Below are positions 29,012 to 59,900 of a stretch of DNA of 64,000 nucleotides, one piece after another. The notes beneath the pieces were generated by a model that searched no databases, was not told where the DNA came from, and saw only the letters and a list, made by a program, of their open reading frames with translations. This DNA is from Planctomycetota bacterium (GTDB lineage: Bacteria; Planctomycetota; Planctomycetia; Pirellulales; Pirellulaceae), in the NCBI GenBank assembly GCA_026692865.1, contig JAPLNI010000030.1, positions 62,001-126,000 on the forward strand, given 5' to 3'. The translations under genes were made by a program, and so were the position numbers. How positions within the stretch are numbered: position 1 is the first letter of the stretch; each line of letters opens with the position of its first letter.

Positions 29012-30487
29012 CTAGTTCTTACGTTTGGCTTTTCGCACAGCTTTGTCACGTTCTTTTTGTAAGCGTTCTCGTTCTTTGGGTGTGAGTCGTTTTCCCGTGC
29101 TTTGCTTGAGCGACATGCCCTGCATGGGGTTCATAGGATTGTTCGACATCATCCCTTGCATCTGCTGAAGGGCAGCCATCTTTTCTCGCGCGCCACCGCT
29201 AGACATCATCTTCATGAAGCCAGCGATTTGATCAAACTGTTTGAGGAGTTCATTCACCATCGGTGCTGTCGCTCCGCATCCTGCTGCGATTCGCATTCGA
29301 CGTTGGTTGTCGATGATCTTGGGATTGTCTCGTTCGGTTGGAGTCATTGAATCAATGATTCCGGCGATGCGTCGCATTTCTTTATCGCTGTCAGCGCTTT
29401 GAAGGGCTTTGGACATTTCACCCATGCCTGGCATTAAGCCCATCATCTTTTGCATCAGACCAGGCTTGCGTAGCTTTTGCATCATGTCGCGGAATTCGGT
29501 AAGGCCAAATTGGCCCTTCTTCATCCGCTCTTCCATTGCTTTGCGTTCGTCCTCGTCGACTAGTCGATGGGCTTCTCGAGCGACTTCCAGAATGTCGCCC
29601 ATTTGAAGGATACGGCTAGCCATTCCTTCGGGACGAAACGGCTCCAGTGCATCAAGGTGTTCTCCCGTTCCGAGGAACTTGATGGGGACTTGCGTAACGG
29701 CCTTGACGCTCAGCAACGCTCCACCACGAGCATCTCCGTCCAGCTTGGTCATGATGACACCGTCAAGCTCGAGTGCGGCGTTGAACGCACCAGCACTGTT
29801 GACCGCATCTTGACCGGTCATCCCGTCGACCACCAGCAAGACTTGATCCGGTTTGACGCTTCGATCGATTGACTTGAGCTGGCCCATCAGTTCTTCATCG
29901 ATGGCCAAGCGTCCGGCGGTATCGAGAATTACGACATCAGCACCGGCTGCTTTTGCAGCAGCGATACCCTCTTGGCAAACTGCGACCGGGTCCGAGGCGC
30001 CTTCCTTGGAGAAGACTCCGACTCCCAGTTGTCGCCCGAGTACGTGAAGCTGCTCGATAGCGGCTGGGCGCTGAAGGTCAGCTGCGATCAGGTAGGGCTT
30101 GAACTTGGATTCTTTGATTAACTGCGCGAGCTTACCGCAGGTCGTGGTCTTTCCGGCTCCTTGGAGACCGCAAAGCATGATTGTTTTGACTTGTCCACGT
30201 TGTAGCGGAATTGTGTTGTCGACTGGCCCGAGAATCGCGACTAATTGGTCGTAAACGATTCGAATCAGCTCTTCGCTGGGTTTGAGAGAGAGAAGAACGC
30301 GTTTCCCGAGGGCAGCCTCGGTGACTCGTCCCATAAACTGCTCGACCACCGAAATGCTGACGTCCGCCTCCAAAAGGGAGGTTTCCACTAGCTTTAAGCC
30401 ATCCCGCATGTTGGCTTCGGTGAGCTTTCCCTTGCCTCGAATGCTCTTGAATGCGGATTGGAGATTTTCGGATAAGGAATCGAACAT
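29012..30487 (-). CDS. ffh: Signal recognition particle GTPase Ffh
   Basis: 491 residues. The N domain is followed by the GTPase: P-loop GLQGAGKTTTCGK at about residue 107, LIAADLQRPAAIEQL, DTAGRLAIDEELM and TKLDGDARGG. The C-terminal M domain is methionine-rich (MQKMMGLMPGMGEM, MKMMSSGG, MQGMMSNNPMNPMQGM) and binds signal peptides and 4.5S RNA. Length and motifs are normal, with a basic C-terminal tail ERERLQKERDKAVRKAKRKN. It targets exported and membrane proteins, of which this window has many. It lies 93 bp upstream of the YraN-like gene. Confidence 0.97.
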   Translation of the reverse strand: MFDSLSENLQSAFKSIRGKGKLTEANMRDGLKLVETSLLEADVSISVVEQFMGRVTEAALGKRVLLSLKPSEELIRIVYDQLVAILGPVDNTIPLQRGQVKTIMLCGLQGAGKTTTCGKLAQLIKESKFKPYLIAADLQRPAAIEQLHVLGRQLGVGVFSKEGASDPVAVCQEGIAAAKAAGADVVILDTAGRLAIDEELMGQLKSIDRSVKPDQVLLVVDGMTGQDAVNSAGAFNAALELDGVIMTKLDGDARGGALLSVKAVTQVPIKFLGTGEHLDALEPFRPEGMASRILQMGDILEVAREAHRLVDEDERKAMEERMKKGQFGLTEFRDMMQKLRKPGLMQKMMGLMPGMGEMSKALQSADSDKEMRRIAGIIDSMTPTERDNPKIIDNQRRMRIAAGCGATAPMVNELLKQFDQIAGFMKMMSSGGAREKMAALQQMQGMMSNNPMNPMQGMSLKQSTGKRLTPKERERLQKERDKAVRKAKRKN

Positions 30488-31025: not shown

Positions 31026-34000
31026 ATGACCATCGGTCGCAACGGAAATCGTTCCCAACTTCGACGTCAAAAACTAGGCAAAGCACGTAAACTTTCGCAG
31101 TCCCGCCAGGCTCTGCTGGAGTCTTTGGAGCTTCGTCAATTGATGACTGTCGGACCGCAATTAATCGCGATGCAGTCCAACGAAGGGACGGTCGTTTCCG
31201 AAGGGCAGATCCTCAATACGAGCCCTCGAGAACTGGTCTTCCGTTTTAGCGATTCTTCGAACATCGATCCGGCGACTCTTAGCGGTATTCAGATCACTCG
31301 CTCTGGTGGCGATAGTGCATTCGACCGAGCTTACGTTAGCACGGATTTGGGTACCAACGGAACGGTCGTCATGGACTTTGCCGCGGCAGTTCCTGGACAA
31401 CCTGGCAATGGAACTCGCGTAACGTTTACTTCCGTTGCGCAGGCCACTTCTGGCGTTCCCGTTCTGACGGTCGGAGCCAAGAGCGTTAACATCCAGTTGA
31501 ACACGCTTGCCGGTTTCAAGACGACCGCACAAAACATTCTGACCGCATTCCAAAACTCGCCTGCTGCTCGTTCGGTTGTCATTGCATCGATCCTTCGAGG
31601 AGTTCCTACAACCGTTGTTGCGGACACTGCTCCTGTGGGGCAGACATTGACTCTTACGGGAGCCAATACACCTAAGGCAACCACAAACCTGAACGCTGGT
31701 GCTGCAGTTCAAGTCGACTTCACTGCTTCGCAACCTGGCGTATCAGGACTGAATACGCGAGTTATTATTACAAGTCGAAATTTTGGTGGTCCTGGTCTTC
31801 CAAACGTTTCCGTCGTCGGTCAAACGATCAACGTACAAGTCAACAGCAACGTCAACAATGCGACAACTCTTGGCGAGTTTGTTGACGCCATCAACAGCAA
31901 TACGGCCGCTGCACAACTCTTGACAGCAAGAATCGCTAGCGGACTTCGCTCGACTCGAATCGGAACAACCGTTGTCAATAACACAACGATTCCACTTGGT
32001 GGACTTAACGATGTCAACATTGTCCCTGGTTATATCGGTTTGGGTGATACACCGAATGAAGTCATCGTTCGTTTCGCTGAAACGCTACCTGATGATATTT
32101 ATCGCGTCGACATTCTCGGTACGGGGATCACCGCTTTAAGAGGGATCAACGGTCAAGCTTACAACAATGGTACCGATACGAGCAGAACGTTTGAACTGGA
32201 TCTTGGGGCATTAGTAGCAAGCGTGGTTCCGCAACCAGTTGTTACCACCAACGGTGCCCGAAATCAGCTACTCAATGAGATCCACGTCTACTTCAATAAT
32301 GACGATCTCAACTTGCAAGACGCACGAAATCCAGCGTTCTATCAACTTCGATATTTGCGTGGAACGGTCGATTCAAATGACGACTTGGTTGTCTATCCAC
32401 AGACGGCGACTTATGACGCAGGTACTGATCGAGTTGTCCTAAGGTTTGCGCGTAATCTCGATGGTTTTGCTTCCTCAGCAGGCCTAACCGTAGAAGCGAT
32501 GCGTCTGCGAGTGGGTAGTCGTGTTGACGCCAATAAGTTTGCGGTACTTCCGGTAAATGCGCTCGTAGCCGTTCCTTTGTCGGCTCCTTCAACGATTACG
32601 TTCGGGCTAAACGAAGAACCGGGTGATCAGTTTTCAACGGCTAAGAATTTGAATACATCCGGCTGGACTATTTCAACTTCCGCACCAAGTTCGGCAGTCC
32701 TGAATGCATTGATTTCCAATCCGACTCCATTTTCACTGGATTTCCCTGGAGCCGATTCCGAACCAGGCAATCGAAAGATTCGTTATCAACAACACGTCAC
32801 CGGAGTGGATGCTGATGGTATAGAAGTTATCGAGTACAACTTCCAAGGCTTCTTAGGAACAGCCAACGGTAGCAATCAACTCAATGCGATTACCGATGGC
32901 CAAAAGGAAATCGTCCGAAATATATTCGATCTCTATCAGAACTATTTGGGCGTAAGATTTGTTGAGACAACTTCGCGCGGTGCAACGATTGCTGTCGGAG
33001 ACATGCGAGCCATCGATCCTACTGCAGTCAATGGGCTGGGTGGACAGACGCTTATCAACGGCACGTTGCTGGCAAACGGGCAGCCCGCTGTTATTTTTGA
33101 TATTCAAGATTCAGAATCATCTACGAACAATATTTTTGGAACCGAGTTGTTCCGAACTTTTGCCCGAGGCATTGGTAATTTGTTAGGTCTCGGGACTGCT
33201 GATGAAGTTCCTGGTTTGACTGTTCAAAGCAATATTCCTCCAGTGAATCCGGGAATTGATACGGAACTGGTTTATCCAGGTAATGCCGATATTGTTTATG
33301 GGCAGTACATGCATCGCCCGGAAAGCAAGGACATCGATCTTTACCGATTCAACATCCCCGCAAGAGGCGAAGTTCGAATCGAAGTAAGTGCTGAACGAAT
33401 AGTGGCACGTGATCCCGTAACCGGCGAGTTGCGTGGTGATGCTAGCTTGTTAGATGCATCACTTCGATTGTATCGAAGATCTGTCGATGGAAGTTGGACT
33501 GAAGTTGCAGCCAACGACAACTACTTTAGCGAAGACTCGCAGATTCGTTTGAATCTTGAGCCAGGCGATTACATTGTCGGTGTCAGTGCCAAAGGGAACC
33601 AATCTTACGATCCGAACATTCCCGATTCAGGATTGGGTGGCCGATCTGAGGGCAAGTATCAACTTCGATTGGATTTTAATCCTCCGCAAACCGCCTCGCT
33701 ACGCGATTCTACGGGAGTCGCGATTGATGGTGATGCCGATGGAAAGCCAGGCGGTTTCTTTGATTTTTGGTTTGTGCCAAACAGTGCAACCAATATGATT
33801 TATGTTAGTAAGAATGCGCCAGTTCCCGGAGCAAATCCACAGCCAAATACCGGTAACGGTTCTTTGTTAACTCCGTTCAACACAATCGCGGAGGCACTAG
33901 AGCTCGCAGCAAAAGACCTTAATCGTAAGGTGGTTCGATTACTTGGCAACGGCGGTACAGACGGCGATATCGCAACAGCCGGTGACAACTTTGCTTACGA

Positions 34001-37000
34001 AGTTGGCTTTAATCGACTTGGACAAGTTCAAGCCGATGGGCCTACCTTTGATGTTCCTTCCAACGTAACCGTGATGATCGACGCAGGTGCGATCGTGAAG
34101 CTTAGCCGCGCTAAGATTGGTGTTGGCAGTTCGACTGTTTCGGTGAATCGAAGCGGTGGCGCACTTCAAGTGTTGGGGATACCGCGATTCATCGATTCAA
34201 GCGGACGAGTAGTTGCCGATTTGGCCGGTAACCCGGTACCAGGTAACGTTTACTTCACGTCGCTTAACGATTCCTCAGTTGGAATTGGAAGCAACCGCGA
34301 CACAAATAGGCCTGCGGCCGCACCGGCGGATTGGGGCGGGATCGATATTCGCAATCAAGTCGATGCGTCTTTAGTAAGTGTCGCAGGGTCGACTCGCGCA
34401 AACAAAGAAGCGAACGGGCTCTTCTTGAACTCGATCATTCATGCTGATTTAAGATTCGGAGGCGGAAGCGTTGTATTCGATGGTGTATCGCAGGTTATCA
34501 CTCCAATCCACATGGTCGATTCTCGACCGCTGATTGCTAACAGTTTGATCTCTAGATCCGCAGACGCGGCCATTGCTGCGACTCCAAATAGTTTCTTGGA
34601 AAGTAATTTCCAAGATCCTGTTTCACAAGCAAGGGCTTCCGCACTATTCATTTCCGACCTTGAGCGAGTTGGACCGGACATTCGCGGTAATCGTCTAACA
34701 AACAATTCGGTCAACGGTTTGTTTGTCAAAACAAAAACGACTCCGACATCGACAGTAGAAAAGATTACGATCCCTGGTAGGTTCAACGATACAGATATCG
34801 TGCACGTTATCTCTGAGAACCTTGTGATTCAAGGTGCAACCGGTGGCTATGTTGCCACGACTGAATCTCCTTCAGCTATCGCTGTGGTCGCGACTCCATC
34901 GAGCGTGTTAGGACTTACTAATGGACTCTCTGCACTTACTGGCCCTACGAATGGATACCGGTACAAGTTTACGTTCTATACACCTGCGTCTAACTTTGAG
35001 TCGCCCGCATCAGCATCAACACGTTTGATCCAAGTTCAAACTCCAACAGGTGTCGACTCTGGACAAATCCTGTTGACTGGACTTCCCGTGTTGCTCCCAA
35101 CGCAAGTTCTCCGGATCTATCGCTCGTCGGTTGTCAACGGAGTTGAGTCTGTGTCTTACTTGGTTGGGACAACTAGTCCGACACAAACAAGCTTTACGGA
35201 TAACTTTGCAGCACCTGAAATTGTTGCTGCGACGCCATCGACTATTTCCACTGTTCTTGCAACTCCGCCAACCGGAATTTCGGTTGGAACGGCAAACGAC
35301 TCCTTTCTTACCAACGGACTTGTTTCAGGTCGCTATCGCTATCAGATTTCCTACATGGAAGTTGACGGCAGTGAAGGATTGCCAGCGACTGTAGCACAGG
35401 ACGCCGTGGTTGTTACGACTGTGGTTGGCAGCGCCACTGGACGCGTGATTTTAGATAATTTGCCGCTAGATACAAGCTTTGGCGCGGCAACTCGGATTCT
35501 TAAAATATATAGAGTGCCAGTCGATCCAATTTCACTCGCAATTACCGGAAGTTTCCAATTAGTTGGAGCTCTTCCTTCGGGAACAAGAACGTTTGTCGAC
35601 TCCAACGTTAAAGTTGCGTTTGCACCACCGGCTGTACCGCTTAGTACGTTGATCCCGCCTACCATTCCGGTTGGAGGACTCGCTCCAGTCTTGTCGTTTA
35701 ATGCAACTAGCGGACTACAATCAGGCAACAGCTATCAGTATTCATACTCGGTAGCGAATACCGCTGGTGCTGAGAGTGCAAGAAGTTCAGATACCGTGGT
35801 CACGTTGACCGCCGGCGTTAACACTATTCAAATTCGATCATTACCGACAATCGCAGCTAACGAAACTCTACGAATTTATCGTTCGAGAGTTAGTAACCCG
35901 GCTACACCGCCCGTGGTAACGCTTGATCCACCTATCTTGGTAGGAGTCGTTTCGAGTGGTGTCACTAGCTTTACAGATACCGATGCTCGGGTCATCCCTG
36001 CGTTTAACACATCTGTGGGCACGACAATTCCTACTCCAGCACTCTCGGTAGTGTTCGTTCCCCAAGTCGCCATCGGAGCGAATGGTACACCGGCTCTTGT
36101 TAACGGAATAACTCAAGGCACCTATCAGTATCAAATCTCAATCGTCGAAACGGTTGTCAATCCGAATTCTGGTATATCGGAGTTCTTAGAGAGTGAGCCG
36201 ACCGGGACTTTGCCTAGTCCCCTTGCAACGGTGAACGTAACCAATACAGGTTCGGTCGCAAACGGAACGGTCAGGATTTCCAACCTCCCGTCAATTGCTG
36301 CGACTCAGAGATATCGTATTTATCGCGCATTGGTGACCCCTGGTGCACCGGTAGCCTCATCTCCGTTCCTTCTCGTTGCCGAGTTACCTGCAACGACCAC
36401 AAGTTTCGTAGATGCGAGGGCGACAGCGGGAATCATCTTACCAACGGTTTCGGACACTTCGCTCAACGATTTATCTGGAGCATTAACAGCGAGAACGAAT
36501 GGTTCTCTTAAAATCGATCCCGGCACTGTGATTAAGCTCCAGGGTTCACGGATAGAGGTGAACGGCGGTGCTCAGCTCCTCGCTGAAGGTACTGATGGAT
36601 CGCCAATCATCATGACCAGTATTAACGATACGCGTTATGGTGCTGGCGGAACATTTGATACAGCCAATCGACGCGGGACCGTCGCTCCTGTTGCGGGTAA
36701 CTTCGGTGGTGTATTTATCGGCCAGGCAAGCACAGGATCGTTTGACTTCGTACGGTTCGCTTTCGGTGGTGGCACGACGCGTATTGATGGCGGATTTGCT
36801 TCGTTTAATGCAATCGAAGGCCATCAAGCAGAGCTTCGAATCACTAATTCCCGATTCGAGGATAATGCTTCAGGAATCGAAGCGCTCACGCCGACCAATC
36901 GCGCCGGACGTGGTACTAACTTTGATGCAACGATTTTCGTGCGAGGCTCGCAGCCAATCATCGTCGACAACCGAATCACGAATAATGCATCGGCAGCTAT

Positions 37001-40000
37001 CAACATAGACGTCGATTCGCTCAACAGTCAGTACCTAGTCGATAAGGGACGCCAGTCGGGGTTTGTGCAGTCAACACGAAGCAAGGATACGGCACGAATT
37101 GACAATCAAGGACCGATGATCGCTGGTAATGAATTGGCGAACAACGGTGTCAATGGAATGATTGTTCGCGGCCAGACGATTACAACGGAAAGTGTTTGGG
37201 ATGACGCTGATATCGTTCACGTAGTTCGAGATGAAATCATCTCGTCGAATCTTTACACCTATGGTGGGCTGAGATTAAAGAGCAATAGTTCGTCGAGTCT
37301 TGTAGTGAAGTTCGGTGGTAGCGATTCGACCGTAACGAAGGGGCTTACGGCGACCGGAAGAAACCTCGATATTGCAGATCGAATTGGTGGAAGTGTTCAG
37401 ATTGTCGGTGTTCCTAACTTCCCGGTTATCTTGACTACTATTGATGACGACTCGGTTGGGGCTGGTTTTACTCCGACTGGAATTCCGGTTACCGATACCG
37501 ATAACAACGGTGCTTTTCAAACGCTGTCAGAGCTTCCGACAATTGGTGAAGTCAATCGTGGAATCACTATTGATAACGATGTTGCTACAAACGTGGTAGG
37601 ACATTTCGAGTATACACCGGCAGCGGGCGGGGAAGTCACGTCGTTGATTCCAACAAGTGGTATCACTGCACAAGGAAACACTCAGCTTTTGACAAATGCG
37701 AACGTAATATTCGCGTTCCAAAACTTCGTCGATTTAGGTGCCGATGGTGGCGCCATACGCTTGGGTAACACCACAATCACGCTTCAACCGACTCTCATTG
37801 CGCCCGACGTCGTAATAAGTGAAGGAAATTTTGTCGGAAATGGTAATGCCGTTGTTAGCTGGCGTGTTCGAAGCTCGTTTGAAAACGGTGTCGCTCAATT
37901 GGTGAATACGGTTACATTTACCAGTACAGCGAGCCTCGGCTCACTTCGCCTTGTCAATTACTTAGACGAAGACATCTTATCTAACGCGGATGATTTGCTA
38001 TTCACTACTGGAACTCCTGGCGGTGCGGACTTCAGAGCGTTTACGATTGATGGTGCAGAACGTATTGGATTTTCCCATGGCGGAGCTTATCTTCCTGGCG
38101 AAGGCCTTATCAACGCAACGTATGCCGGATGGGCTGCTGACGTATTCCCTCTGCTTACCACCGCGATTACAGGACCCGGAACAACTTACTCCATTACTGG
38201 AAATATCAACCAAGCGAACCTCCCTCAATTGAACGACCCGACAATAGGTATCGCGTTTGGTCCTACAGACATCACTACTGCGTTTGCTTGGGATGTTGAC
38301 CCCACAGCGACGACATCGACTATTACGACCTTCCTCGAATTGTTGCCGCGAGAAGTCCAAAACGCTGTCGCTCCAGGTGGTTGGCGTGGTTTGTTGTTTG
38401 AAACGGGAGCGAATGATCGTAACGTTTCGGTTGTGACCGAGCGTGAGTCAGCTCAAACCAGTGCAGAGGCGAGGAACGAGCAAACCTCTCCGGGCAATGC
38501 GGCTACGTCCAACGATAACCCGAGCACAGGTCAATTGCTCGGAACTCTTGCTTCGTCAGCTAAAGCAGGTGACGAGAATGCGAGATTGGGTTACCAAATT
38601 CATGGCGTAATTAACCGGCCATCGGATCGCGATGTTTACTCTTTCTATGCCGACAGCGGGACCGAAGTTTGGTTGGATATTGATCGAACAAGCAACAGCC
38701 TTGATACCGTAGTTGAGTTGATTGACGCAGATGGAAAAATCTTGGCTTCGTCCGACAATAGCAACGCGGAAGAAGCTGCCGGAGCCGTTACGTTTGCCGC
38801 TATCGATCCGGTGACAGGAAGACAAATCGTTGCGAATCCGCTTCGCAAGTCTGCGATTCAGACTTTCCCAATCGATTCACGTGGTCAAGCAAAGGATTTG
38901 TATAGTACAAATCCTAAGGATGCTGGTTTCCGAGTCGTTCTTCCAGGGAACTCCAGAAACACACTCTATCAAGTTCGAGTTCGAAGCAGCGATTCCGCGC
39001 AAGCAGGCGTGCTGGACTCCAGGAGCGGCACGAATGGCAAATCCAAAGGGGCTTATCAACTTCAAATTCGACTCACCGAAGCTCAAGAATTTCCGGGAGC
39101 GTCGGTCAGTTTCGCAGACATCCGTTTCGCTACGACCGGAATTGATTTAGCAGGTGTTCCTCGTCATTCGCCTCTTCTCGGAGAAGCGGCAGAGCAGGTA
39201 GATACAGCAACAGCTCCAAGCAATAACACATTTGCGACAGCACAAGAGCTCGGTAATTTGCTGCAAACCGATCGCGCAACGATAAGTGTTGCAGGCAATC
39301 TTTCCTCACCAACGGATGTCGATTGGTACGCCTTTACGCTTGACTATCAAGTCTTGCAAACGGACTTACAGAGATACTTCTCTACAGTCTTTGACGTTGA
39401 TTATGCAGATGGCATCGGTCGTCCGGATACTTCGGTGTACTTGTTTAACGCAGCGGGTAACTTGTTGAGTCAGGGGCTCAATAGCAACATTCTTGACGAT
39501 CGAGCTGGAGCCTTAAAAGGTGCTGACAACTCCGATCTCAGTCGCGGTTCGGCTGGAACGCTCGATCCATTCTTGGGGCCGATAGAACTCGGTGCGGCAG
39601 GCAGTACAATTTCATCTGGAAGGTACTTCATTGCCATCACAAACCAAGGTCGTATTCCAACGCAGGTTGCTGCCTTTAATGATCCAACCAGTGGAAATCC
39701 ATTGCTTCGGCTGCAGCCATCCAACAATACGCAATGGATTGTTGAAGATCGTGTTGGTTCCGTGGGTGGTTCGACCGCTCAGCCACCAGTAACAACAAAC
39801 TTTTTACCTGCCGCTTCGGCTGCTGTACCGTTTTCGCTCAGTGATGTAGCGTTGTATCTTAGCTCTGACAGTGGGTTAAACGGCACGAATATTTTCATCG
39901 CTAACCCGATGACAGGTACTTCAGACTTTGTTGGCACTAACGGTCAAGACGTCAACGACATTGCGTTTCGATACAACGGGGACCTTCGTGGATTCAATCG

Positions 40001-43000
40001 TGTTTTGACAGTACCTGGCAACGTCGACGCCGACGGAGAGGTTGATTATCAGCATCTCAATGATGCTACTGGAGCTGCAACTTCGGTAGGTGCATTCAAC
40101 CTTCAGACATCGGTCCTAGATAGGACGGTTGCGCCTCCAGCCCTTGCTGCTGCTGATGTTGGATTTAACATTGAGGCGGTGGCATTCGGGAATTTTGGTG
40201 TTCAAGGTGGTGGTTTTGGCGGTCCGGAAACTGGACTGGTCGTTGGTAACAGACCTGTGATCAATCCTCTATCCGATGGTGTTCAAGCCACGCGATTACC
40301 AACCACTGCCCGTGGCACGAATGTTGTATATCGATTCAATCCGGACACGGGTGCGGTGATTGGGACTACTAACTTTAATGGGACAACACCAGGTGGTGGA
40401 GCTTTCATTCTCGGGAACGGTACCGAAACCGACGAACTCGGCTACATCGACACGACGACCCCTTCCGGCTTGCCTTCGCGTCGACTGACATTCATTGACG
40501 CTACAACCTTTAATTCGACTGCCATTCCTCCGATCACAACGCCGGTTCTCAACGACGGGGATAACTTTGTGATTCAGCTACCAACGGGCCAAACGCGTAC
40601 TTTTGAATTTGATACTGGACCCGAGTTCCGATTAACGCTGGACCCCGTTAACGGGCCGTTCTTAGCGGACGGTTCAACGTTTACGTTAAGTAATGGACAA
40701 AGTTTTGAGATCCAGACGAACTCAACTCCTGTTCAAGCAGGTGCGAGACCGATCCTTTACAACACGAATATGAACAATGCTCAGTTTGCGATTGCCTTGC
40801 AAGCGGCGATGGATCTAAGCGGGCCTCAGTTTACGGTTCAGAGCAATCTAGGCTTTGGCATTGGACAAGATGGATCGCGATTCAACATTGCAGGTGCGGG
40901 TGTTCTGCAAGGAACAACTGGCTCGTTTGCCGACCCAGTAGTTGTCAACATAACGAACCCAGGAAGCGCGACTCTTAACAATCCGAACGCTGTTCAAGTA
41001 ACTTTCCTGGCGCAAGACACTGGGGCGATACTTGCGCAAAAGGCCTCGACGGCCATAAACGCACAGGGTTTTCTTGGGGTCTCAACGACAATTGTTGGTG
41101 ATAGTATTGTCCTCACGGGTGCAACCATTGCCTCTACTCAGGGAGCCATTTTCCAAGATCAAGTTGCGGCTGGTGGAACGATTACCGGTATTGCTGTCCA
41201 GAACGTCGCGGGAAGCCCGGTCTTCGCGATCTCAACTACAGGTGGACTCTATCGAGTCAACACAACGCTTACTGCGAACGCGGGAAACATTGGAACTTTT
41301 GTTGGGCAGATAGCAGCCCCTGCGGGAACGGTCTTTACTGGATTGACTGCAGGTCCGAGAACGCTTCAGGGTGGTCAGTATGCGAACCTATTGTTCGCAA
41401 CGACCCGGAGTGGCAGTGTTTTCGCATTCAACACCAGCGGGGTTCTCCAGCCAGTATTTGCCTTGGGAGCATCAAGTATCAACACGGGGCTGGCGAATCT
41501 GAACGGACTTGCGTTTTCCACACTTGACTACAATCTGTTCAACGTGAGTAACCAACGTGGAGCTGATGCCGGTCACGGTAATCCTGGCTCACCAGATGGA
41601 ATTGTCACCGCGACTCCTGGTGGGCAGAGTTGGCATTTCGCGTATGAAGGTGGAAACCAGAATCCAAATGCCCTATACGACGGCGTGACAAATCCTTCGG
41701 CGCAGGCGCGCTTCGATGCTGGTCCAACAACCAACACTTATAACTTCCCGGGTGGAGCAACTGGTGTTTTGCAGTCGCAACCAATTTCTCTCTCGAATAT
41801 CGCCGCTGGTGATACTCCTTACTTTTACTTCACCTATTTCTCGACGACGGAATCCGCCAACAACACCGACAATGATCTGATTCGTATCAAGGCAATCGGA
41901 GACGACGGTATTTGGCGTGAGCTAGGTAACAACGACGTTGATTTGAATTCGCCTGTGATTTTCAACAACTCGGCGACACAAACGGGTTGGAAGCAAGCTC
42001 GAGTGAATATTGCCCAGTTTGCTGGGAATCAGAACGTGCGATTCCGCTTTGAATTCAGCACAGGCGGTGGAATCAGCAGCGACCCGGGGGCTGAACTGCG
42101 TGTGGTTCCAGGCAATCAGCTAAGCGACGGGCAGACATTTACTGTTGCAGGGACCGTGTTCGAGATCAATAAAGGATCCACGCTTACTGTTCCTGCTGGA
42201 TCGTCTATCGCCAACGGTTCGACGCTAATAGTTTCAGGAACGACCTACACGTTCCGACAAGGAACTCCTCCACTTTCGCCATCGGCAACCGACATCTATT
42301 ACACAACATCGCAATCAGCCTCCGGCATGACTGGATTGATCGCAACGGCAATTCTTGCTTCAGGGCCGACGGTCAGCGGAAATAGAATTCAGTTAGCCAC
42401 GGGCTCCTTCACGTTACCAACAGGAAGTTCTTTCGTTGTACAAGGCAACGCTGGGACGACTGTTGGAAATCTACCTGTTAACATTTCAGAGACCATGTCC
42501 GCTAGCGAAGTCGCTATTGCGGTTCGTGATGCTCTTCGCGCATCGATTGGTAACGGAAGTACTTACGATATCTTCCCAACTCGCGAAGAGTTCGTCAGTC
42601 TTCCCGGTGTTCGAAGCGGTGTGGTCGCTGGGCCATTTACGGTCAACTTCCCAGATCCTAATTTGCGTCAGTTTGCATCCGTAGCGAATCCGTCTCCAAC
42701 AAATCGCCTAGTCAATAACGCGTTTGAAGGGATTTATTTAGATGACTTCGTGATTGGCGTGGCTGAACGTGGTGAGACCATCGGCGGTTCTAGCACCGAT
42801 ACGACTTTTGTTGCAAATCCAAACGCAATCGCTAACTCAATCAATGTTGGAGCCTACCAGCTCGAAATACGCGGTGGTCAGGAGTATGGCGTTCCAACAC
42901 AAGCGGGACTTCAATACCCAACCACGGTTAATTCGTCGTTAACGGGAATCAACACTCGTTTATCGCTTGGTGCAACCATCACCTTGCCAAATGCTACGGG

Positions 43001-46000
43001 AATTGTAAATGGCGATAGTTTCACGATCTCCGATGGGAACTCCTCGGTACTTTTCGTGTTCTCTGATACTGCATCGCCAGCACCGCTCCCCGTTGGAGCG
43101 ATCGCCGTGCCGTATAGCGTGTCGATTGCGAATCCTCGAACAGGTGTAATTGGCGCGGAAACGTCTTCGACTTTGGCTGGAAGACTTCGAGACATTTTGA
43201 ACAGTTCCGTTATTCAGTCGCGACTGAAGATCACGGCGATTTCGCTCACTGGTGCAGCGACTGGGCCTTCTGGTCCAGAGCTTGCATTGTCGAGTAACGC
43301 TGTAGTAACAGTTCCAACCCGCCCGGCTGGTTCGACGCTTGCCCCTGTGGTTTCAGTGACTCGATACGTTGGTAAAGGCGATTCCAACACTCCACGCGAT
43401 CAAGGGCAGATCATTGTCGAAAATTCCAAGATCTCCGATTCGGCTCAGTACGGAATTGTTCTTAGACCCGATGCTCGAGATCCTATAAGTGGTGGTAACA
43501 ACCCAAGCCCAGGCGCCGTTCGCAATACGGTTGTATTGAATACGGAACGCCTCGCACCTGGTGCGGTGATCATGAATAACGAGATCATTGGAAACCGCGT
43601 TGGCGGAATTCAGATCGTCGGCGACAACGCAGCCAACACGACCGTTCCTTCGTCAATTCCGTTTGCTAGAATTATCAATAATACGATTGTTGGCGGCTCG
43701 ATAATCAAGACAGAGGTTTTGGGACCACAAGTCTTCAATGATCTGCTGTTTCCAAACGGATCAATTTCCTTTGCAGATTCGGTGATCTCCTACTTGCCAA
43801 ACTTTAGCAATGGCTTGGCCCCTGCTGCTGGAGTTGCCATCGCAACGGACGCATTGGGGATTCCAAATTACACTGGCGGGTTTGCGGAACCAGCTACGGG
43901 ACAAGGTGCTGTTTCTCTTGGTTCTGGTGGACGATTGACAGTCCAGTTAACAGATAACCTTCTGACAGGATCGAACGATGCAAGGCCCGATTTGGCGATC
44001 ATTGAAGTCGGTGATTCGGAGCGTGCATTTGTCGAAGTCAGTACTGATGGAGTGACCTATACTTCAGTCGGTTCGATTAGCGGTACCGTTCGCACGATTG
44101 ATTTAGATTTCTACGGATTCAATCGTGATAGTCGACTTCGGTTTGTGCGTATAACCGATGACATCTTGGAGGGCGCTACAAGCGGTGAAACTGTCGGTGC
44201 TGACATCGATGCTATCGGTGCCTTGTCGAGTGTTCCTGCTACAGTTTATGCAGCTGGCGGAATCGGTATCGATATCGGTGCGAATACGAGCCCAACTCTA
44301 TTGAACAATATTGTTGTTAACAGTGTGACGGGCCTGAACGTTGCTGCGGGCTCGACCCTAAATCCGAATGTAACTGTTTCAACAGTCGGTCCTGTTGTCG
44401 GCGGAATGGTCTTCCAACGCAACACCGCAGACGTGGGCGGCATTGCGACATTCGGACAGTCGGTACTTCAACCGAATGCTAACGTTGAATTATTCCAAGA
44501 CGCTGCCAACCGGATTTTCTATCCAAACGTCGGTGCTCCCACGATTGACTCGACAATTGATTCATTACTGGATCGTCCGGGTTTGATTGCTGTCAAGCAA
44601 CCGCTCGGCTTAGATCTTTCTCCGATCATCGCTCCAACTTACGATCTTAATGGACTCCTACGAGTCGATGATCCAACCGTCAACACACCATCGGGTGTGG
44701 GACAGAACGTTTTCAAGGATCGTGGTGCTCAAGATCGATCAGACAACCTTGGACCAAGTGCAGTTCTCCTGCTGCCAGTCGATAACAGTACAACCAGCGG
44801 CGATTCTAATCCGCTTGTCGGCACCGTTCAGATTAGCAACCAGACATTGCCTTACTTCGAAATTCGATTGATTGACGGAGTCGATCTCGGTAGCAGTTCG
44901 AACGGATCGGGAATAGATGCTCAATCGGTTAGTGGTGCAGGGATCGTTGTTACTCGCGATGATGTCGAATTGATTCAAGGTATTGACTATCGGTTCGGCT
45001 TCGATGCCACTAGCAATACGATTCGGCTCACCCCAATCGCAGGTGTGTGGACATCGGATGCTGTTTACAAGATTCGATTCGTCTCTGCCGGCGAAAGCGT
45101 GATTCCGCTTAATACGATTGCAAATCTTGCCGACGGAACGACTTATGTTATTCTGGACGCCAATGGAGATTACAAGACCTTCGAGCTGGATCTTGGTATT
45201 CGCTTGACAGTTCCAACGGTAACTAACGGAACGACTCAAAGCTTGTTGGATGGATCGCAGTTTATTCTCAGCGATGGTATCCAGACATTGACTTACGAAT
45301 TCGATTCAGACGGTGTTTTTGCGACCAATTCCGTTGTGATCCCAATCCTCGCGACAGAGACTCCGGCAGTAGTTGCCACCAGGATGATCGCAGCGATTCG
45401 TGCTTCGGGATTAAATGCTTCTGTGAATTCGGTTTCTAGTGACAGCATTCAAGTTCTTGGGGCGACAGTTACGCTTGATTCAAACACAAGCCGCTTACGC
45501 TCCGTAGGGAGCAATGGAACGATCTCGACATCGATTCCGATTGTCCTAAATGCGGGATTGTTGATCGATGGAAATGCTGTTGCAACGGCAGTCGCAGATG
45601 CAATTCGAGCAGCCGCTTTACCGGGCGTGACGGTCTCGCAGAATGGACAGAACCTACTGCTGAAAGGGACACAAGGCGTCTATGGAACGGGTGCAACGGT
45701 TGCGGGTGAAATCAAGGACATGGCTGGAAATGCCTTACGAGCAAACGGAGATAGTGGCGATACGACATTGACCATTATCCTGGCTGACGGTTTCGACTAT
45801 GGTGACACGCCTCAGCCTCTTTATGCAACCAGCAAAGTAAACAATGGACCTCGACATCGCATTGCAGATGGATTCTATCTTGGCTTGGGCGTAAGTGCTG
45901 AAGGAGATGCTCTCCCCGCAGGAACGGATACGTTGGACGATGGGATTGCTTTTCCAGCAACGTTTGTCAAGGGTTACTCGACATCGATAACAGTGACGGC

Positions 46001-46901
46001 CGCGGGTATCTCTGCAGATCGAATGGGCTACTTGAACGCTTGGATCGACTACAATCGAGATGGTGTCTTCGCCGATAGCGAACGGATAACAAACTTGGGA
46101 GGTCGATTGCTGGTAAATGGAAACAGCAACAATCTTCAAGTGACGATCCCAGGTGATGTTACCCCGGGCTCTCTGAATGCACGTTTCCGATACAGCTCGG
46201 TCGCTACTCTAGGACCTCTTGGAGAGGCTGCAGATGGAGAAGTCGAAGACTACGTCATCACCGTCGGTAACAATGCATATCAGAACCCGACCAACCAGTT
46301 CGACGTGAACAACGATACGTTCGTTTCACCGATCGATGTGTTGCAAGTGATTAACTACCTGAATCGAAATCCAGGACAGATTTCAACTCAGTTGCCAATT
46401 AATCCGACGACGCCGGTTCCGCCTTATGTGGATGTCAATGGCGACAGCTTTGTCACTCCTCTGGATGTGTTGCTGGTCATCAATGAACTCAACCTGCGTT
46501 CAAGAGCACGTTCGGCAGGCGGTGAGGGTGAGAGCGTTTCAGCTGACACATGGGTTTCTTCAAGTGCTCAGGTCCCGTCTCAGTCAATCGTGCCAGCGTC
46601 GCCTAACTTCGCAAGTCCGCCAGTTCAAAGCCTGCCAGCTCAGAACCAGCCAGGGCAAAGCAGTGCCTCCAATCTGGTATCACAATCGGTTTCGCAATCG
46701 TCGGGTCAATCAACAGACTCGGAAGCAGCTTCCGGCAGTGTGGTTGCATCGGTTGACAATCTCTGGGCCGCTAGCAGTAGCGGAGCGGTAGATTGGCTCG
46801 ATGAAATCGATTCGTCTTTGGGAAGTTTGAGTAACAACGAAACGTCCAACAGCCAAACGGTCGACGGTTTGTTCGCACGGTTGGAAGGTTTTGGGAGCTG
46901 A
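31026..46901 (+). CDS. Giant exported modular protein (5291 aa) with dockerin, PPC, GEVED and beta-helix modules
   Basis: Basic N-terminus, then LLESLELRQLM (residues 30-40), the planctomycete N-terminal export-like motif. Modules in order (approximate residues): Ig-like/Big domains (45-480); metalloprotease-like segment without zinc ligands, RGIGNLLGLGT at 714-724; PPC-type domain (745-885); parallel beta-helix (900-1280); four Fn3-like modules with RIYRS-type strands (1298-1800); second beta-helix copy (1820-2090); PPC domains (2490-2690, 2730-2890); propeller-like region (2930-3500); MAM/jelly-roll-like segment (3535-3690); beta-helix (4125-4430); Big-like (4575-4690); GEVED (4922-5082); dockerin pair (5090-5158); Ser/Gln-rich tail. 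Units around NGDSFTISDG and LLDGSQFILSDG recur. Probably a surface or matrix protein; enzyme activity not shown. Confidence 0.88.
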   Translation: MTIGRNGNRSQLRRQKLGKARKLSQSRQALLESLELRQLMTVGPQLIAMQSNEGTVVSEGQILNTSPRELVFRFSDSSNIDPATLSGIQITRSGGDSAFDRAYVSTDLGTNGTVVMDFAAAVPGQPGNGTRVTFTSVAQATSGVPVLTVGAKSVNIQLNTLAGFKTTAQNILTAFQNSPAARSVVIASILRGVPTTVVADTAPVGQTLTLTGANTPKATTNLNAGAAVQVDFTASQPGVSGLNTRVIITSRNFGGPGLPNVSVVGQTINVQVNSNVNNATTLGEFVDAINSNTAAAQLLTARIASGLRSTRIGTTVVNNTTIPLGGLNDVNIVPGYIGLGDTPNEVIVRFAETLPDDIYRVDILGTGITALRGINGQAYNNGTDTSRTFELDLGALVASVVPQPVVTTNGARNQLLNEIHVYFNNDDLNLQDARNPAFYQLRYLRGTVDSNDDLVVYPQTATYDAGTDRVVLRFARNLDGFASSAGLTVEAMRLRVGSRVDANKFAVLPVNALVAVPLSAPSTITFGLNEEPGDQFSTAKNLNTSGWTISTSAPSSAVLNALISNPTPFSLDFPGADSEPGNRKIRYQQHVTGVDADGIEVIEYNFQGFLGTANGSNQLNAITDGQKEIVRNIFDLYQNYLGVRFVETTSRGATIAVGDMRAIDPTAVNGLGGQTLINGTLLANGQPAVIFDIQDSESSTNNIFGTELFRTFARGIGNLLGLGTADEVPGLTVQSNIPPVNPGIDTELVYPGNADIVYGQYMHRPESKDIDLYRFNIPARGEVRIEVSAERIVARDPVTGELRGDASLLDASLRLYRRSVDGSWTEVAANDNYFSEDSQIRLNLEPGDYIVGVSAKGNQSYDPNIPDSGLGGRSEGKYQLRLDFNPPQTASLRDSTGVAIDGDADGKPGGFFDFWFVPNSATNMIYVSKNAPVPGANPQPNTGNGSLLTPFNTIAEALELAAKDLNRKVVRLLGNGGTDGDIATAGDNFAYEVGFNRLGQVQADGPTFDVPSNVTVMIDAGAIVKLSRAKIGVGSSTVSVNRSGGALQVLGIPRFIDSSGRVVADLAGNPVPGNVYFTSLNDSSVGIGSNRDTNRPAAAPADWGGIDIRNQVDASLVSVAGSTRANKEANGLFLNSIIHADLRFGGGSVVFDGVSQVITPIHMVDSRPLIANSLISRSADAAIAATPNSFLESNFQDPVSQARASALFISDLERVGPDIRGNRLTNNSVNGLFVKTKTTPTSTVEKITIPGRFNDTDIVHVISENLVIQGATGGYVATTESPSAIAVVATPSSVLGLTNGLSALTGPTNGYRYKFTFYTPASNFESPASASTRLIQVQTPTGVDSGQILLTGLPVLLPTQVLRIYRSSVVNGVESVSYLVGTTSPTQTSFTDNFAAPEIVAATPSTISTVLATPPTGISVGTANDSFLTNGLVSGRYRYQISYMEVDGSEGLPATVAQDAVVVTTVVGSATGRVILDNLPLDTSFGAATRILKIYRVPVDPISLAITGSFQLVGALPSGTRTFVDSNVKVAFAPPAVPLSTLIPPTIPVGGLAPVLSFNATSGLQSGNSYQYSYSVANTAGAESARSSDTVVTLTAGVNTIQIRSLPTIAANETLRIYRSRVSNPATPPVVTLDPPILVGVVSSGVTSFTDTDARVIPAFNTSVGTTIPTPALSVVFVPQVAIGANGTPALVNGITQGTYQYQISIVETVVNPNSGISEFLESEPTGTLPSPLATVNVTNTGSVANGTVRISNLPSIAATQRYRIYRALVTPGAPVASSPFLLVAELPATTTSFVDARATAGIILPTVSDTSLNDLSGALTARTNGSLKIDPGTVIKLQGSRIEVNGGAQLLAEGTDGSPIIMTSINDTRYGAGGTFDTANRRGTVAPVAGNFGGVFIGQASTGSFDFVRFAFGGGTTRIDGGFASFNAIEGHQAELRITNSRFEDNASGIEALTPTNRAGRGTNFDATIFVRGSQPIIVDNRITNNASAAINIDVDSLNSQYLVDKGRQSGFVQSTRSKDTARIDNQGPMIAGNELANNGVNGMIVRGQTITTESVWDDADIVHVVRDEIISSNLYTYGGLRLKSNSSSSLVVKFGGSDSTVTKGLTATGRNLDIADRIGGSVQIVGVPNFPVILTTIDDDSVGAGFTPTGIPVTDTDNNGAFQTLSELPTIGEVNRGITIDNDVATNVVGHFEYTPAAGGEVTSLIPTSGITAQGNTQLLTNANVIFAFQNFVDLGADGGAIRLGNTTITLQPTLIAPDVVISEGNFVGNGNAVVSWRVRSSFENGVAQLVNTVTFTSTASLGSLRLVNYLDEDILSNADDLLFTTGTPGGADFRAFTIDGAERIGFSHGGAYLPGEGLINATYAGWAADVFPLLTTAITGPGTTYSITGNINQANLPQLNDPTIGIAFGPTDITTAFAWDVDPTATTSTITTFLELLPREVQNAVAPGGWRGLLFETGANDRNVSVVTERESAQTSAEARNEQTSPGNAATSNDNPSTGQLLGTLASSAKAGDENARLGYQIHGVINRPSDRDVYSFYADSGTEVWLDIDRTSNSLDTVVELIDADGKILASSDNSNAEEAAGAVTFAAIDPVTGRQIVANPLRKSAIQTFPIDSRGQAKDLYSTNPKDAGFRVVLPGNSRNTLYQVRVRSSDSAQAGVLDSRSGTNGKSKGAYQLQIRLTEAQEFPGASVSFADIRFATTGIDLAGVPRHSPLLGEAAEQVDTATAPSNNTFATAQELGNLLQTDRATISVAGNLSSPTDVDWYAFTLDYQVLQTDLQRYFSTVFDVDYADGIGRPDTSVYLFNAAGNLLSQGLNSNILDDRAGALKGADNSDLSRGSAGTLDPFLGPIELGAAGSTISSGRYFIAITNQGRIPTQVAAFNDPTSGNPLLRLQPSNNTQWIVEDRVGSVGGSTAQPPVTTNFLPAASAAVPFSLSDVALYLSSDSGLNGTNIFIANPMTGTSDFVGTNGQDVNDIAFRYNGDLRGFNRVLTVPGNVDADGEVDYQHLNDATGAATSVGAFNLQTSVLDRTVAPPALAAADVGFNIEAVAFGNFGVQGGGFGGPETGLVVGNRPVINPLSDGVQATRLPTTARGTNVVYRFNPDTGAVIGTTNFNGTTPGGGAFILGNGTETDELGYIDTTTPSGLPSRRLTFIDATTFNSTAIPPITTPVLNDGDNFVIQLPTGQTRTFEFDTGPEFRLTLDPVNGPFLADGSTFTLSNGQSFEIQTNSTPVQAGARPILYNTNMNNAQFAIALQAAMDLSGPQFTVQSNLGFGIGQDGSRFNIAGAGVLQGTTGSFADPVVVNITNPGSATLNNPNAVQVTFLAQDTGAILAQKASTAINAQGFLGVSTTIVGDSIVLTGATIASTQGAIFQDQVAAGGTITGIAVQNVAGSPVFAISTTGGLYRVNTTLTANAGNIGTFVGQIAAPAGTVFTGLTAGPRTLQGGQYANLLFATTRSGSVFAFNTSGVLQPVFALGASSINTGLANLNGLAFSTLDYNLFNVSNQRGADAGHGNPGSPDGIVTATPGGQSWHFAYEGGNQNPNALYDGVTNPSAQARFDAGPTTNTYNFPGGATGVLQSQPISLSNIAAGDTPYFYFTYFSTTESANNTDNDLIRIKAIGDDGIWRELGNNDVDLNSPVIFNNSATQTGWKQARVNIAQFAGNQNVRFRFEFSTGGGISSDPGAELRVVPGNQLSDGQTFTVAGTVFEINKGSTLTVPAGSSIANGSTLIVSGTTYTFRQGTPPLSPSATDIYYTTSQSASGMTGLIATAILASGPTVSGNRIQLATGSFTLPTGSSFVVQGNAGTTVGNLPVNISETMSASEVAIAVRDALRASIGNGSTYDIFPTREEFVSLPGVRSGVVAGPFTVNFPDPNLRQFASVANPSPTNRLVNNAFEGIYLDDFVIGVAERGETIGGSSTDTTFVANPNAIANSINVGAYQLEIRGGQEYGVPTQAGLQYPTTVNSSLTGINTRLSLGATITLPNATGIVNGDSFTISDGNSSVLFVFSDTASPAPLPVGAIAVPYSVSIANPRTGVIGAETSSTLAGRLRDILNSSVIQSRLKITAISLTGAATGPSGPELALSSNAVVTVPTRPAGSTLAPVVSVTRYVGKGDSNTPRDQGQIIVENSKISDSAQYGIVLRPDARDPISGGNNPSPGAVRNTVVLNTERLAPGAVIMNNEIIGNRVGGIQIVGDNAANTTVPSSIPFARIINNTIVGGSIIKTEVLGPQVFNDLLFPNGSISFADSVISYLPNFSNGLAPAAGVAIATDALGIPNYTGGFAEPATGQGAVSLGSGGRLTVQLTDNLLTGSNDARPDLAIIEVGDSERAFVEVSTDGVTYTSVGSISGTVRTIDLDFYGFNRDSRLRFVRITDDILEGATSGETVGADIDAIGALSSVPATVYAAGGIGIDIGANTSPTLLNNIVVNSVTGLNVAAGSTLNPNVTVSTVGPVVGGMVFQRNTADVGGIATFGQSVLQPNANVELFQDAANRIFYPNVGAPTIDSTIDSLLDRPGLIAVKQPLGLDLSPIIAPTYDLNGLLRVDDPTVNTPSGVGQNVFKDRGAQDRSDNLGPSAVLLLPVDNSTTSGDSNPLVGTVQISNQTLPYFEIRLIDGVDLGSSSNGSGIDAQSVSGAGIVVTRDDVELIQGIDYRFGFDATSNTIRLTPIAGVWTSDAVYKIRFVSAGESVIPLNTIANLADGTTYVILDANGDYKTFELDLGIRLTVPTVTNGTTQSLLDGSQFILSDGIQTLTYEFDSDGVFATNSVVIPILATETPAVVATRMIAAIRASGLNASVNSVSSDSIQVLGATVTLDSNTSRLRSVGSNGTISTSIPIVLNAGLLIDGNAVATAVADAIRAAALPGVTVSQNGQNLLLKGTQGVYGTGATVAGEIKDMAGNALRANGDSGDTTLTIILADGFDYGDTPQPLYATSKVNNGPRHRIADGFYLGLGVSAEGDALPAGTDTLDDGIAFPATFVKGYSTSITVTAAGISADRMGYLNAWIDYNRDGVFADSERITNLGGRLLVNGNSNNLQVTIPGDVTPGSLNARFRYSSVATLGPLGEAADGEVEDYVITVGNNAYQNPTNQFDVNNDTFVSPIDVLQVINYLNRNPGQISTQLPINPTTPVPPYVDVNGDSFVTPLDVLLVINELNLRSRARSAGGEGESVSADTWVSSSAQVPSQSIVPASPNFASPPVQSLPAQNQPGQSSASNLVSQSVSQSSGQSTDSEAASGSVVASVDNLWAASSSGAVDWLDEIDSSLGSLSNNETSNSQTVDGLFARLEGFGS

Positions 46902-56966: not shown

Positions 56967-59900
56967 TTATTTTTTTGCGATCGATCTCGCTGCCACGTTA
57001 CTCTCTTGAAACACATACTGCCTTAACGCAAGAATAAACGAAAACGCCAATAGAAGTGGTCCGCTCCAGACACGCATCCATCCCATATTTAAAGGTGCCG
57101 AATCAAAATTTATATCGCTCACAATTGAAACATCGAAAAGCATTATCCACAGCAATATTCCGATCACTCCAAAGAGAAGCCAGGGGCGAATCCGCATGTG
57201 CTGGATCGCGACATCAAGGGCTTGATCAGCTCGCTTCCTCAACCCGGGAACGATCGAAAACATCATCAATAAAACTCCGGAAACTACGAAAAAGTAAGAG
57301 CCAGCGAGTCGAGATGACTCCGTTGCAACGCGGCTTGATAGTTCAACACGCAGCTCGCCTTTATCAGAAGAATTCAAGACAAACGTGGGATTTCTCTTCG
57401 AGAGCATCGCTTCAGGAGAACAGTTAGCATCCAGGATATTCGATGAGTATATCATCGACGGATCACGCCGCCATTGAACGGCTGATTTGTCGCGTACAGC
57501 GAGCCAATCATCTACGGTTTTCGTCAGAGCGCTGTCGATGGTTGGGAAAAGCAGATCGCACGCAAACGCTTGCCATCCCACCCACCAACGATCACGCTGA
57601 GGCAGAGTTGAATCGAGTGCGGTACTGGATGCTGTGTCGGAACAAGTTGCAAAGAGACTCAGCATCGATTCGTTCAACTTCTCGTGCGATAAACTCGTCC
57701 ACTCGACTTGTCTCAGCTTGTTATCTTGGTCAAGAAAAATCGGATCGACTTCTACGAATATTTTGGATGCTTTAGGTTCGTCCAAATACGGGAGGTTGAT
57801 TGCGTGTGAGAGTCCATCGCTCTTCGGTTGTTGAATCGGTACCGCGAATGCAACTCGGATGAACTGCGGAAGAACCGATGAATGGAGCTGAATTTCCGCG
57901 GACGATATGGTTTTCTCGGACTCATTGGGCTTCGCTATAAACGGACACGAAACACCGTTTACGCTGGCTGATAGAAGCCGCATACTGCTTGGGAACTTAA
58001 GCGACGAAACTGATACGCCTTTGGGTTCGAGAATGAAAAATGATTCTAGCTGCGCTGCATCTGCACCTTGCGATTGAATTCGATGCACACTCAAGGAAAC
58101 GGCAGACAAAGCAACTGTTCCTTTTAGCAAATTCAGTTGTACATCGGGTTGTTGCGAAAACGGAACAAACCAAGCAAACTCATTGGCGGGTGACGGTAAC
58201 TCTTTCAAGCTCTCTGGAACTTGTTTTGAACTCCGAACCCCTGAGGTCGTCCAAGATAATTTTCTTCCGTTGACTGTTTTCGGAACCGCTATCCATTGAT
58301 CAACCAAAGGTCCATTCAATAAGCGAACACTTGGTACAGATAAGCCAGTCGTTGATTGGTCGCTGTCAAGTTGGTACTCGATTGAGAAAGAAAATGGTTC
58401 TTTCGAATTCATCGTAACTTCCGAGTTGGGATTTCGTTTGGGAGAAACCAAGAGCAATCGTCTCCCCGGTTCGGGTGAGTCAAACTGTGTGAGTGTACTT
58501 TCACTTATAAGCGAAGGAACTATCTCAGTGGGGACGTCAAATAGGAGTCCGCCAATCTTGCTTTCGCCTCGGCTTACCGAACCAATTAGTCGGTACTTCC
58601 ACGCGCTACCTTCGAAAGCCAACACAGAGACCGAGTGGCCTCGGATGTCATCCATCGATGGTCTTATGCGGTATTGCATTGTCAGTGGTGATTTGCGATT
58701 GGCCTGTTGCAAGTCATCTGACGATTCAGTAACAAGCAAATCCGCATCCCACAAGTGTTCGTGGATCCCATCCACCGAGAAGTTGTTCTCTCCCAAGGTT
58801 TCAGATGATTGATCGTTTTTAAAAAGTTGGAATGGAAGTGCTGAGGCGACCGAAGGAGTTAAACTCGGCGGTTGCTTCTGACTAGATACTTCGTCTTCAA
58901 TTTTCGGTTGGGTTGCCATAGGCATGAGTGTTGAAGATAGATTGAATCCCTCGGTTCCCTGAAACTCAATCGGTAAATCAAGCAGACGCGAGGCAGATAC
59001 ATGAAGCGATGTTGTACTTGCGTTCCGTACGGCAACCGACGGAAGTCGCCTCCATTGGTTTCCCCTGGAGTAAATCTGCTTGTATCGGACTTTGAATCGC
59101 TTCGATTCATATCTCGACGTATTCGCGAACACTTGGACTTGGCTTGTACCATCGTCGAGGATCGATTCGGCAAATGGTATCTCATTGCCATCACTTTGAA
59201 TTGACTGTACACGAGTCGCAGCGCTAGTGAGCAGTACAAAATCGGACATCGCTCGACCCATCACTTCGAACTGGAACTCCGTAACTCCGGAAACAGAATC
59301 CGAGCCAAATTCAAGGCTGCTTTTCACATCGACAGAAGGTTGCGAGGTTTTTGAGGTTGGTTGAATTGAAAGTGTTGCCGAAAGGTCCTGAGTCCTGAAG
59401 GCTTGGATGGTTTCTTTATCGGTGCTCGTCCACAGAAACGGAGACTTAGGGGCGAACGGTAACCAACCGCCATTTCGATTAATGTCCCATCGAGAATCGC
59501 TACTTTGCGAGATCGCAACCGAACGCGCATCAACAATCGTGTCACTGAGTTCTATTGCAGGGAGGCTGATCATCGGCGATTTTGCATCGTGGCTTCTGTG
59601 AAGAAATAAGCGTAACTGCCGACGAGAGGCATCAGAAACATCTTTCCATTGAACGCGAAATCGCTTCTTTAAGTTGGTGCTTCCCGCCAGAACATCGATT
59701 ACTTTTCCATCACCCCAATCGAAGCCAATTGGCTCCCATTGGCGCTCGCATTCAACGTCGAAATAGTTCTGTTCCGTCGACGGTCCTGGGCAAGTAACAA
59801 CACATTTTGCGACAGAATGATTGGAAGATATCGACCATTCTAGATCGACGTTTGCTCTGACCGTAGTTGTTGTGAGCCTCGGTTGCCCCTGCCGCCATCG

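Follow-up and report, generated by a model that had tools for sequence, protein, structure and literature searches.

A probable matrixin-like pseudoprotease domain in a giant protein of a Pirellulaceae planctomycete

A giant open reading frame in the window (the whole stretch of 64,000 nucleotides of Pirellulaceae DNA that was analysed) contains a short stretch resembling the zinc-binding motif of the metzincins, HExxHxxGxxH, with every zinc ligand replaced, and this raises the question of whether the protein carries a protease domain that has lost catalysis and kept its fold, as the earlier note on this DNA had proposed, or only an accidental likeness to one.

The substituted motif and its setting

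The stretch FRTFARGIGNLLGLGT occupies residues 709–724 (bases 33150–33197) of the 5291-residue reading frame. R714, G715, N718 and T724 stand at the H, E, H and H positions of HExxHxxGxxH, and none of the four catalytic residues is kept, so that the substitutions described by the earlier note are correct residue for residue. According to the alignment, the Met-turn position is changed as well, to Gln734. The features of the giant gene and its neighbours are as follows.

31026..46901, + strand: giant reading frame, 5291 residues, probably secreted, planctomycete host
N-terminus of the giant reading frame: PF07595, a planctomycete extracellular motif, matched weakly (12.2 bits against a cut-off of 25.5)
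32820..33317, + strand: probable matrixin-like pseudoprotease domain, residues ~599–764, from intact homologues, AlphaFold2 model and PDB fold matches
32895..32948, + strand: predicted first long helix, residues 624–641 (model helix 74–91), with IFDLYQNYL inside
33144..33182, + strand: predicted active-site helix, residues 707–719 (model helix 157–169)
33165..33197, + strand: substituted zinc motif, residues 714–724, RGIGNLLGLGT in place of HExxHxxGxxH
33216..33230, + strand: Met-turn equivalent, residues 731–735, LTVQS with Gln734, placed by alignment only, model confidence being low here
33276..33314, + strand: probable equivalent of the last matrixin helix, residues 751–763, PGNADIVYGQYMH
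33333..33590, + strand: PPC-like domain behind the pseudoprotease, residues 770–855 (PF04151, E 0.00037, 21.7 bits, below the cut-off of 25.9)
38625..38819, + strand: second PPC domain, residues 2534–2598 (PF04151, 27.0 bits, cut-off 25.9)
46029..46262, + strand: GEVED domain, residues 5002–5079 (PF20009, E 2.3e-16)
46299..46493, + strand: dockerin type I, residues 5092–5156 (PF00404, E 8.3e-14)
29012..30487, − strand: ffh (SRP54), divergent neighbour upstream of the giant gene
47065..49626, + strand: dockerin protein of 853 residues, downstream of the giant gene

The ends of the pseudoprotease domain are approximate, having been taken from the model and the alignment; IFDLYQNYLGVRF begins at residue 633. 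Residues 751–763 are placed as the last helix because the Pfam Matrixin match of an intact relative (L059) reaches profile position 158 of 159 and by comparison with DDILAAQTLYG of a paralogue in the same genome, and the pattern of the canonical matrixin in that paralogue supports both this helix and the Met-turn position.

As regards the surroundings, a divergent upstream ffh accompanies related giants at 13 of the 80 named loci retained (the best 80 of 122; L128–L139 and L146), a count among loci some of which do not span the upstream stretch, and it is also found at L211, a locus identical with L133. A relative of the 853-residue dockerin protein (57% over 292 residues) adjoins the giant of another genome, G024. 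The window also holds a second large reading frame (56967–63956, − strand, 2329 residues), for which a Pfam search at E 0.01 gave no match.

Relatives and predicted fold

When the window domain alone was compared with Pfam at E values up to 1, no family was found, and its best match among PDB sequences was MMP-12 at an E value of 0.49, colinear across about 100 residues; the 13 PDB sequences listed comprised 12 of MMP-12 and one of a calcium-dependent kinase (E 1.8). Membership in a protease family therefore depends on the relatives of the domain and on its predicted fold.

The relatives were gathered from two sources. The domain is present in 59 of the 98 genomes searched, its own included (130 match rows, with the short fragments G040:C269 and G010:C605 left out), and a scan of a named-genome collection gave 122 relatives, the best 80 of which were retained. 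The titles of 78 of these 80 records name planctomycetes, among them Rhodopirellula, Rubripirellula, Roseimaritima and Stieleria, and the other two (L148 and L203) are titled 'bacterium' only. Of 211 domain hits, 189 were left once duplicates had been removed, 188 after removal of one low-scoring row and 184 after four fragments lacking the motif region had been set aside, so that every copy in the census has residues at each of the four motif positions. HExxHxxGxxH is intact in 68 of the 184, with all four catalytic residues in 68/68 and the usual reading MHEIGHLLGLGH...TIM, whereas 94 keep none of the four and 22 are partly eroded (four keep three residues, four keep two and 14 keep one); the census leans towards substituted relatives because the query was itself a substituted domain and the best 80 of 122 named relatives were kept. 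In the 98-genome search set alone, 54 of 123 copies are intact. Three loci gave domain hits in two frames, representing a frameshift that may be real or a sequencing error; the motif is intact in two of them (L007/L193 and L022) and substituted in the third (L127).

The closest intact homologues over the domain are L007 (46% identical; E 1e-39 against the window domain) and L010 (41% identical), and where they align with the substituted motif they read HEIGHLLGIGH and HEIGHLLRLGH. The alignment with homologous giants that the earlier note had called for thus yielded relatives with an intact motif and spoke against a chance likeness; it also narrowed the metzincin assignment, which was borne out, to matrixin-like relatives (Pfam PF00413). 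Five of the six intact relatives tested passed the Pfam Matrixin cut-off (L014, L013, L075, L059 and L015), and the sixth, L020, fell just under it (23.6 against 24). Intact relatives match matrix metalloproteinases and karilysin, L013 matching MMP-12 at an E value of 3.3e-07.

An AlphaFold2 model of residues 551–770 was computed from an alignment of 60 rows (the window copy and loci from the named-genome scan). The mean pLDDT was 70.4, with block means of 74–92 over model residues 51–170 and low values at both ends, the stretch after the motif being modelled poorly (block means 34–66). The top Foldseek match of the window model was MMP-12 (E 1.9e-05), and the best match by VIA-align was MMP-9 (Z 12.3, 2.9 Å over 144 residues); the 50 VIA-align matches listed were all metzincins, namely 49 matrix metalloproteinases and the protease 1h71, which is presumably serralysin-like. 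Since model helix 157–169 corresponds to residues 707–719, R714, G715 and N718 would lie on the predicted active-site helix. The fold so obtained, which is of the metzincin type as anticipated, is partly a family-level result, because intact relatives were present in the alignment of the model. A model of an intact relative likewise gave mostly matrix metalloproteinases in Foldseek, but these superposed less well (rmsd 5 to 11 Å); row 7 among its matches was an AB5 toxin entry, the A chain of which we take to be itself a metzincin-type protease.

An accidental resemblance in a domain that is no metzincin would be in keeping with the lack of a direct Pfam hit and the PDB sequence match at E 0.49 only, but it is hard to square with intact motifs among the aligned relatives and with a structural match scoring Z 12.3, and we regard it as extremely improbable. 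By predicted fold and by descent as read from the alignment, the domain is instead a matrixin-like metzincin (PF00413), the sequence link running through its intact relatives; the catalytic domains of matrixins, or matrix metalloproteinases, are presumably those of MEROPS M10A. As in the matrixins, of which karilysin is a bacterial example, the core fold and the position of the active-site helix are recognizable in the prediction, and the intact relatives share HExxHxxGxxH and, in many cases, the Met of the Met-turn; unlike the matrixins, the window copy lacks all four catalytic residues and is embedded at residues ~600–765 of a protein of 5291 residues. With none of the motif residues present and Gln734 in place of Met, the domain is, as judged from its residues, predicted not to be an active matrixin peptidase. 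The substituted motif, the intact relatives and the predicted MMP fold together lead to a dead matrixin-like domain with a retained fold, and the proposal of lost catalysis and kept fold is accordingly well supported by sequence together with the predicted structure.

Repeated loss of the motif and selection on the domain

In a tree computed with the motif columns removed and without an inferred root, the window copy falls within a group of 53 rows (SH-aLRT 97) that is dead throughout and is nested in a group of 81 lost rows (SH-aLRT 90). The tree requires a minimum of 20 changes of motif state, four of them forced by starred branches. Substituted copies also stand beside intact relatives, as for L008 near L010 and L007, and for L091 near L070. 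In a subset of 46 rows, the placing of all 20 lost rows in a single clade was rejected (p-AU 3.4e-06), a value that does not come from a group named beforehand, because the rows of the subset were picked by hand after inspection of the tree. HExxHxxGxxH is the ancestral state of metzincins, and the changes of state are therefore read as losses; as far as the aligned sequences tell, the motif has been lost several times independently in this family.

The substituted copies are under strong constraint. Between the window gene and its counterpart in a genome of the same genus (G001), dS over the domain is 0.79, dN 0.017 and dN/dS 0.022, corresponding to 79.5 synonymous and 8.5 non-synonymous changes in 220 codons, and the 27 codons around the motif carry ten synonymous changes and one non-synonymous change. 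The ratio is 0.045 over the whole alignable gene (3564 codons), and similarly low values of 0.026 for the 540 residues before the domain and 0.029 for the next 140 residues indicate that the low dN/dS is not specific to the domain. Among close pairs (more than 72% identical, dS 0.05 to 2, values with dS well over 1 being rough), dN/dS had a median of 0.062 and a maximum of 0.146 for 38 pairs of dead copies, and a median of 0.068 and a maximum of 0.289 for six pairs of intact copies, the maximum belonging to a pair of which the frameshifted locus L022 is one member; the pairs are not independent because rows are shared among them. On these figures the constraint on the dead domains looks about equal to that on the intact ones.

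A domain that is decaying and functionless would explain why motif residues have been lost in many ways and why partly eroded copies exist (four, four and 14 copies, as above). The strong purifying selection on the window domain (dN/dS 0.022) means that it is not decaying; its ratio is lower than that of the gene as far as aligned (0.045), no dead pair among the 38 exceeds 0.146, and substituted groups of 53 and 22 rows retain the domain. We therefore consider decay very improbable here; it could still apply to some single recent losses, though not to the window group. Being a homologue of an enzyme family without the catalytic residues, with a predicted fold that is kept and under selection, the domain answers to the usual description of a pseudoprotease, as read from sequence and model.

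What the selection acts on may be sought in the columns of the 53-row window group. The catalytic columns have entropies of 1.5–2.5 bits against a mean of 1.40 over all columns, whereas Gly717, Gly721, Gly723 and Gln734, the last at the Met-turn position, are each invariant in 53/53. The first His column contains R (15), F (15), Q (13) and L (10); the Glu column G (28), A (19) and others (6); the second His column Q (28), V (14), R (7), N (2) and K (2); and the third His column Y (22) and N (10), the rest being others. Within the group, the former active-site positions settle differently in each dead subclade. The Pirellula-type subclade has R714 and G715 in 15/15, its pattern being R, G, and either V or N, plus Gln where the Met would stand, and the Rhodopirellula-type subclade has F or L at the first position, Gln at the second His in 25/25, Tyr or Phe at the third His in 25/25 and Gln at the Met position in 25/25. 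The copy of Rhodopirellula baltica (L157), which also belongs to the 53-row group, shows FGQY at the four catalytic positions.

These columns bear on whether the domain is a mere structural spacer or folding unit that is packed on the next domain and binds no ligand, a reading that we consider rather unlikely. In favour of a spacer, the glycines of the scaffold are retained in the window group whereas its catalytic columns vary, and RPESKDIDLYRF, which follows the domain where the weak PPC match begins, is conserved among dead as well as intact copies. The renewed fixation in the subclades (R714 and G715 in 15/15; Gln and Gln in 25/25) suggests instead that the cleft is in use, although it could also be structural or reflect short divergence. 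We infer that the fold has been kept and that the cleft may have been turned to another use.

Coupled loss of the Met and of the motif was considered and is unsupported when phylogeny is taken into account (four independent pairs, starred branches, median p 1). Met stands at the Met-turn position in 44 of 67 intact copies against 24 of 93 copies with none of the four residues, a raw difference that is partly fed by the Gln in 53/53 rows of the window group; 23 of the 67 intact relatives have no Met there.

We consider it probable that residues ~599–764 form a matrixin-like pseudoprotease whose fold is kept and used as a non-catalytic part of the giant protein. The domain would descend from a zinc peptidase in a family with intact relatives; the loss of the three His and the Glu would have removed the residues for binding the catalytic zinc and activating water; and the retained fold, held in its dead form by strong purifying selection, may serve as a ligand-binding groove or a packing interface. 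The giant protein itself would be exported, with its PPC, GEVED and dockerin modules, to a place at or outside the cell surface. The role as a binding module suggested by the earlier note is plausible.

Paralogues, tandem arrays and known pseudoproteases

The genome of the window holds two further copies, which are neighbours on contig C57 (274304–309067 of that contig, G000). The first reading frame (5702 residues; L209, 2304–19412) has a substituted motif (TGMH), and the second (5791 residues; L210, 1692–19067), 279 bases after it, has an intact one and, closer to the N-terminus, a further matrixin domain of canonical type (HEAGHGIGLGH...KLMEPF...DDILAAQTLYG; residues 319–462 of L210, also L216). 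At E 0.001, the only Pfam Matrixin matches in this genome are the two domains of the 5791-residue reading frame.

The N-terminal canonical matrixin (HExGHGxGxxH, KLMEP, DDIxxxQxLYGD) is found in six genomes (G000, G011, G026, G038, G014 and G029; further loci L217, which is the same as L224, L219, L220, L221 and L222) and is intact in all six, even in G026 and G038, where the family domain is substituted; it is absent from the stretch of G037 that was examined (L223).

Copies on the same strand and no more than 45 kb apart form 16 arrays in 15 of the 59 genomes. The motif of the first gene is substituted in 16/16 arrays, and that of the last gene is intact in 12 and substituted in four (G038, G046, G012 and one of G017). 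In 15 of the 16, the first gene comes from a single clade of 22 rows. Of the 20 listed rows of this clade, 14 are followed by 25 kb or more of contig, and all but L042 of these (13 rows) stand in an array.

Such an order invites the reading that an active matrixin giant made by the same cell has the dead domain as its regulator or helper, whether decoy, inhibitor or complex partner. Intact and substituted copies occur together in 25 of the 59 genomes, the arrays begin with a substituted and mostly end with an intact gene, the window genome has its substituted and intact pair 279 bases apart on C57, and a single open frame in G026, and another in G038, encodes both an intact matrixin on the N-terminal side and a substituted second domain (L219/L118 and L220/L091). 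The window gene, however, is part of no array, in the tree the window group is distinct from the array clade, 13 of the 59 genomes have substituted copies only and 21 intact copies only, and the arrays are not 16 independent events because the gene order was probably inherited by descent. For the window domain we think such a partnership unlikely and prefer a non-catalytic part of the giant protein itself. A wider reading, in which the extracellular giants of the Pirellulaceae group pair dead matrixins, encoded first in arrays or alone as in the window, with live ones as subunits of one surface machine, the dead domain holding the substrate and the live one cutting it, is decidedly doubtful.

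A cohesin–dockerin assembly such as the 'planctosome', of which passages of PMC6461901 speak, was also considered and is unsupported: the window genome has 19 dockerin type I matches, and a search of it for cohesin PF00963 at E 0.001 gave no match, more divergent cohesins being possible.

Inactive zincins are already known, bacteria included, and the best studied are mammalian ADAMs, according to passages of PMC3650047, in which zincin families with a substituted HExxH, CLCA among them, provide a known comparison; that account centres on CLCA, and its main text contains neither 'planctomyc' nor 'Pirellula'. The pseudoprotease ADAMs (M12) resemble the present case in that non-catalytic metzincin domains are kept in proteins with other roles (passages of PMC11266112). 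The ADAMs are animal membrane proteins of another metzincin family, whereas the present family is bacterial and M10-like, with repeated loss beside intact paralogues. Giant genes of planctomycetes are likewise known, and their domains have led to guesses at roles in adhesion or at the surface (passages of PMC5177795). Stieleria varia has the consecutive giants Pla52n_17480, 17490 and 17500, the last annotated Matrixin, and this trio resembles the arrays described here, by description, in that surface-type giants stand side by side; the passages concerned make no comparison of active and inactive forms (PMC7717043). Sequences of PF00413 without the canonical motif were removed from the data of PMC12587646, according to passages of that paper. 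No account of inactive matrixin domains of planctomycetes was found among the listed results of the literature searches, which covered few subscription journals and no bioRxiv-type preprints. Inactive zincins, ADAM pseudoproteases and giant planctomycete genes are thus known already, and inactive matrixin domains in such giants appear to be new.

In conclusion, this study describes a bacterial matrixin-like family in which 68 of 184 copies are intact and 116 are changed, with losses that appear independent and dead forms that are under strong selection, and the family offers a natural series for asking what uses an enzyme fold finds once catalysis is lost. The ordered tandem arrays make a partnership of pseudoprotease and protease directly testable, and through the domain one part of the giant planctomycete proteins, the roles of which have so far been guessed from domain names (passages of PMC5177795 and PMC7717043), becomes open to experimental test.
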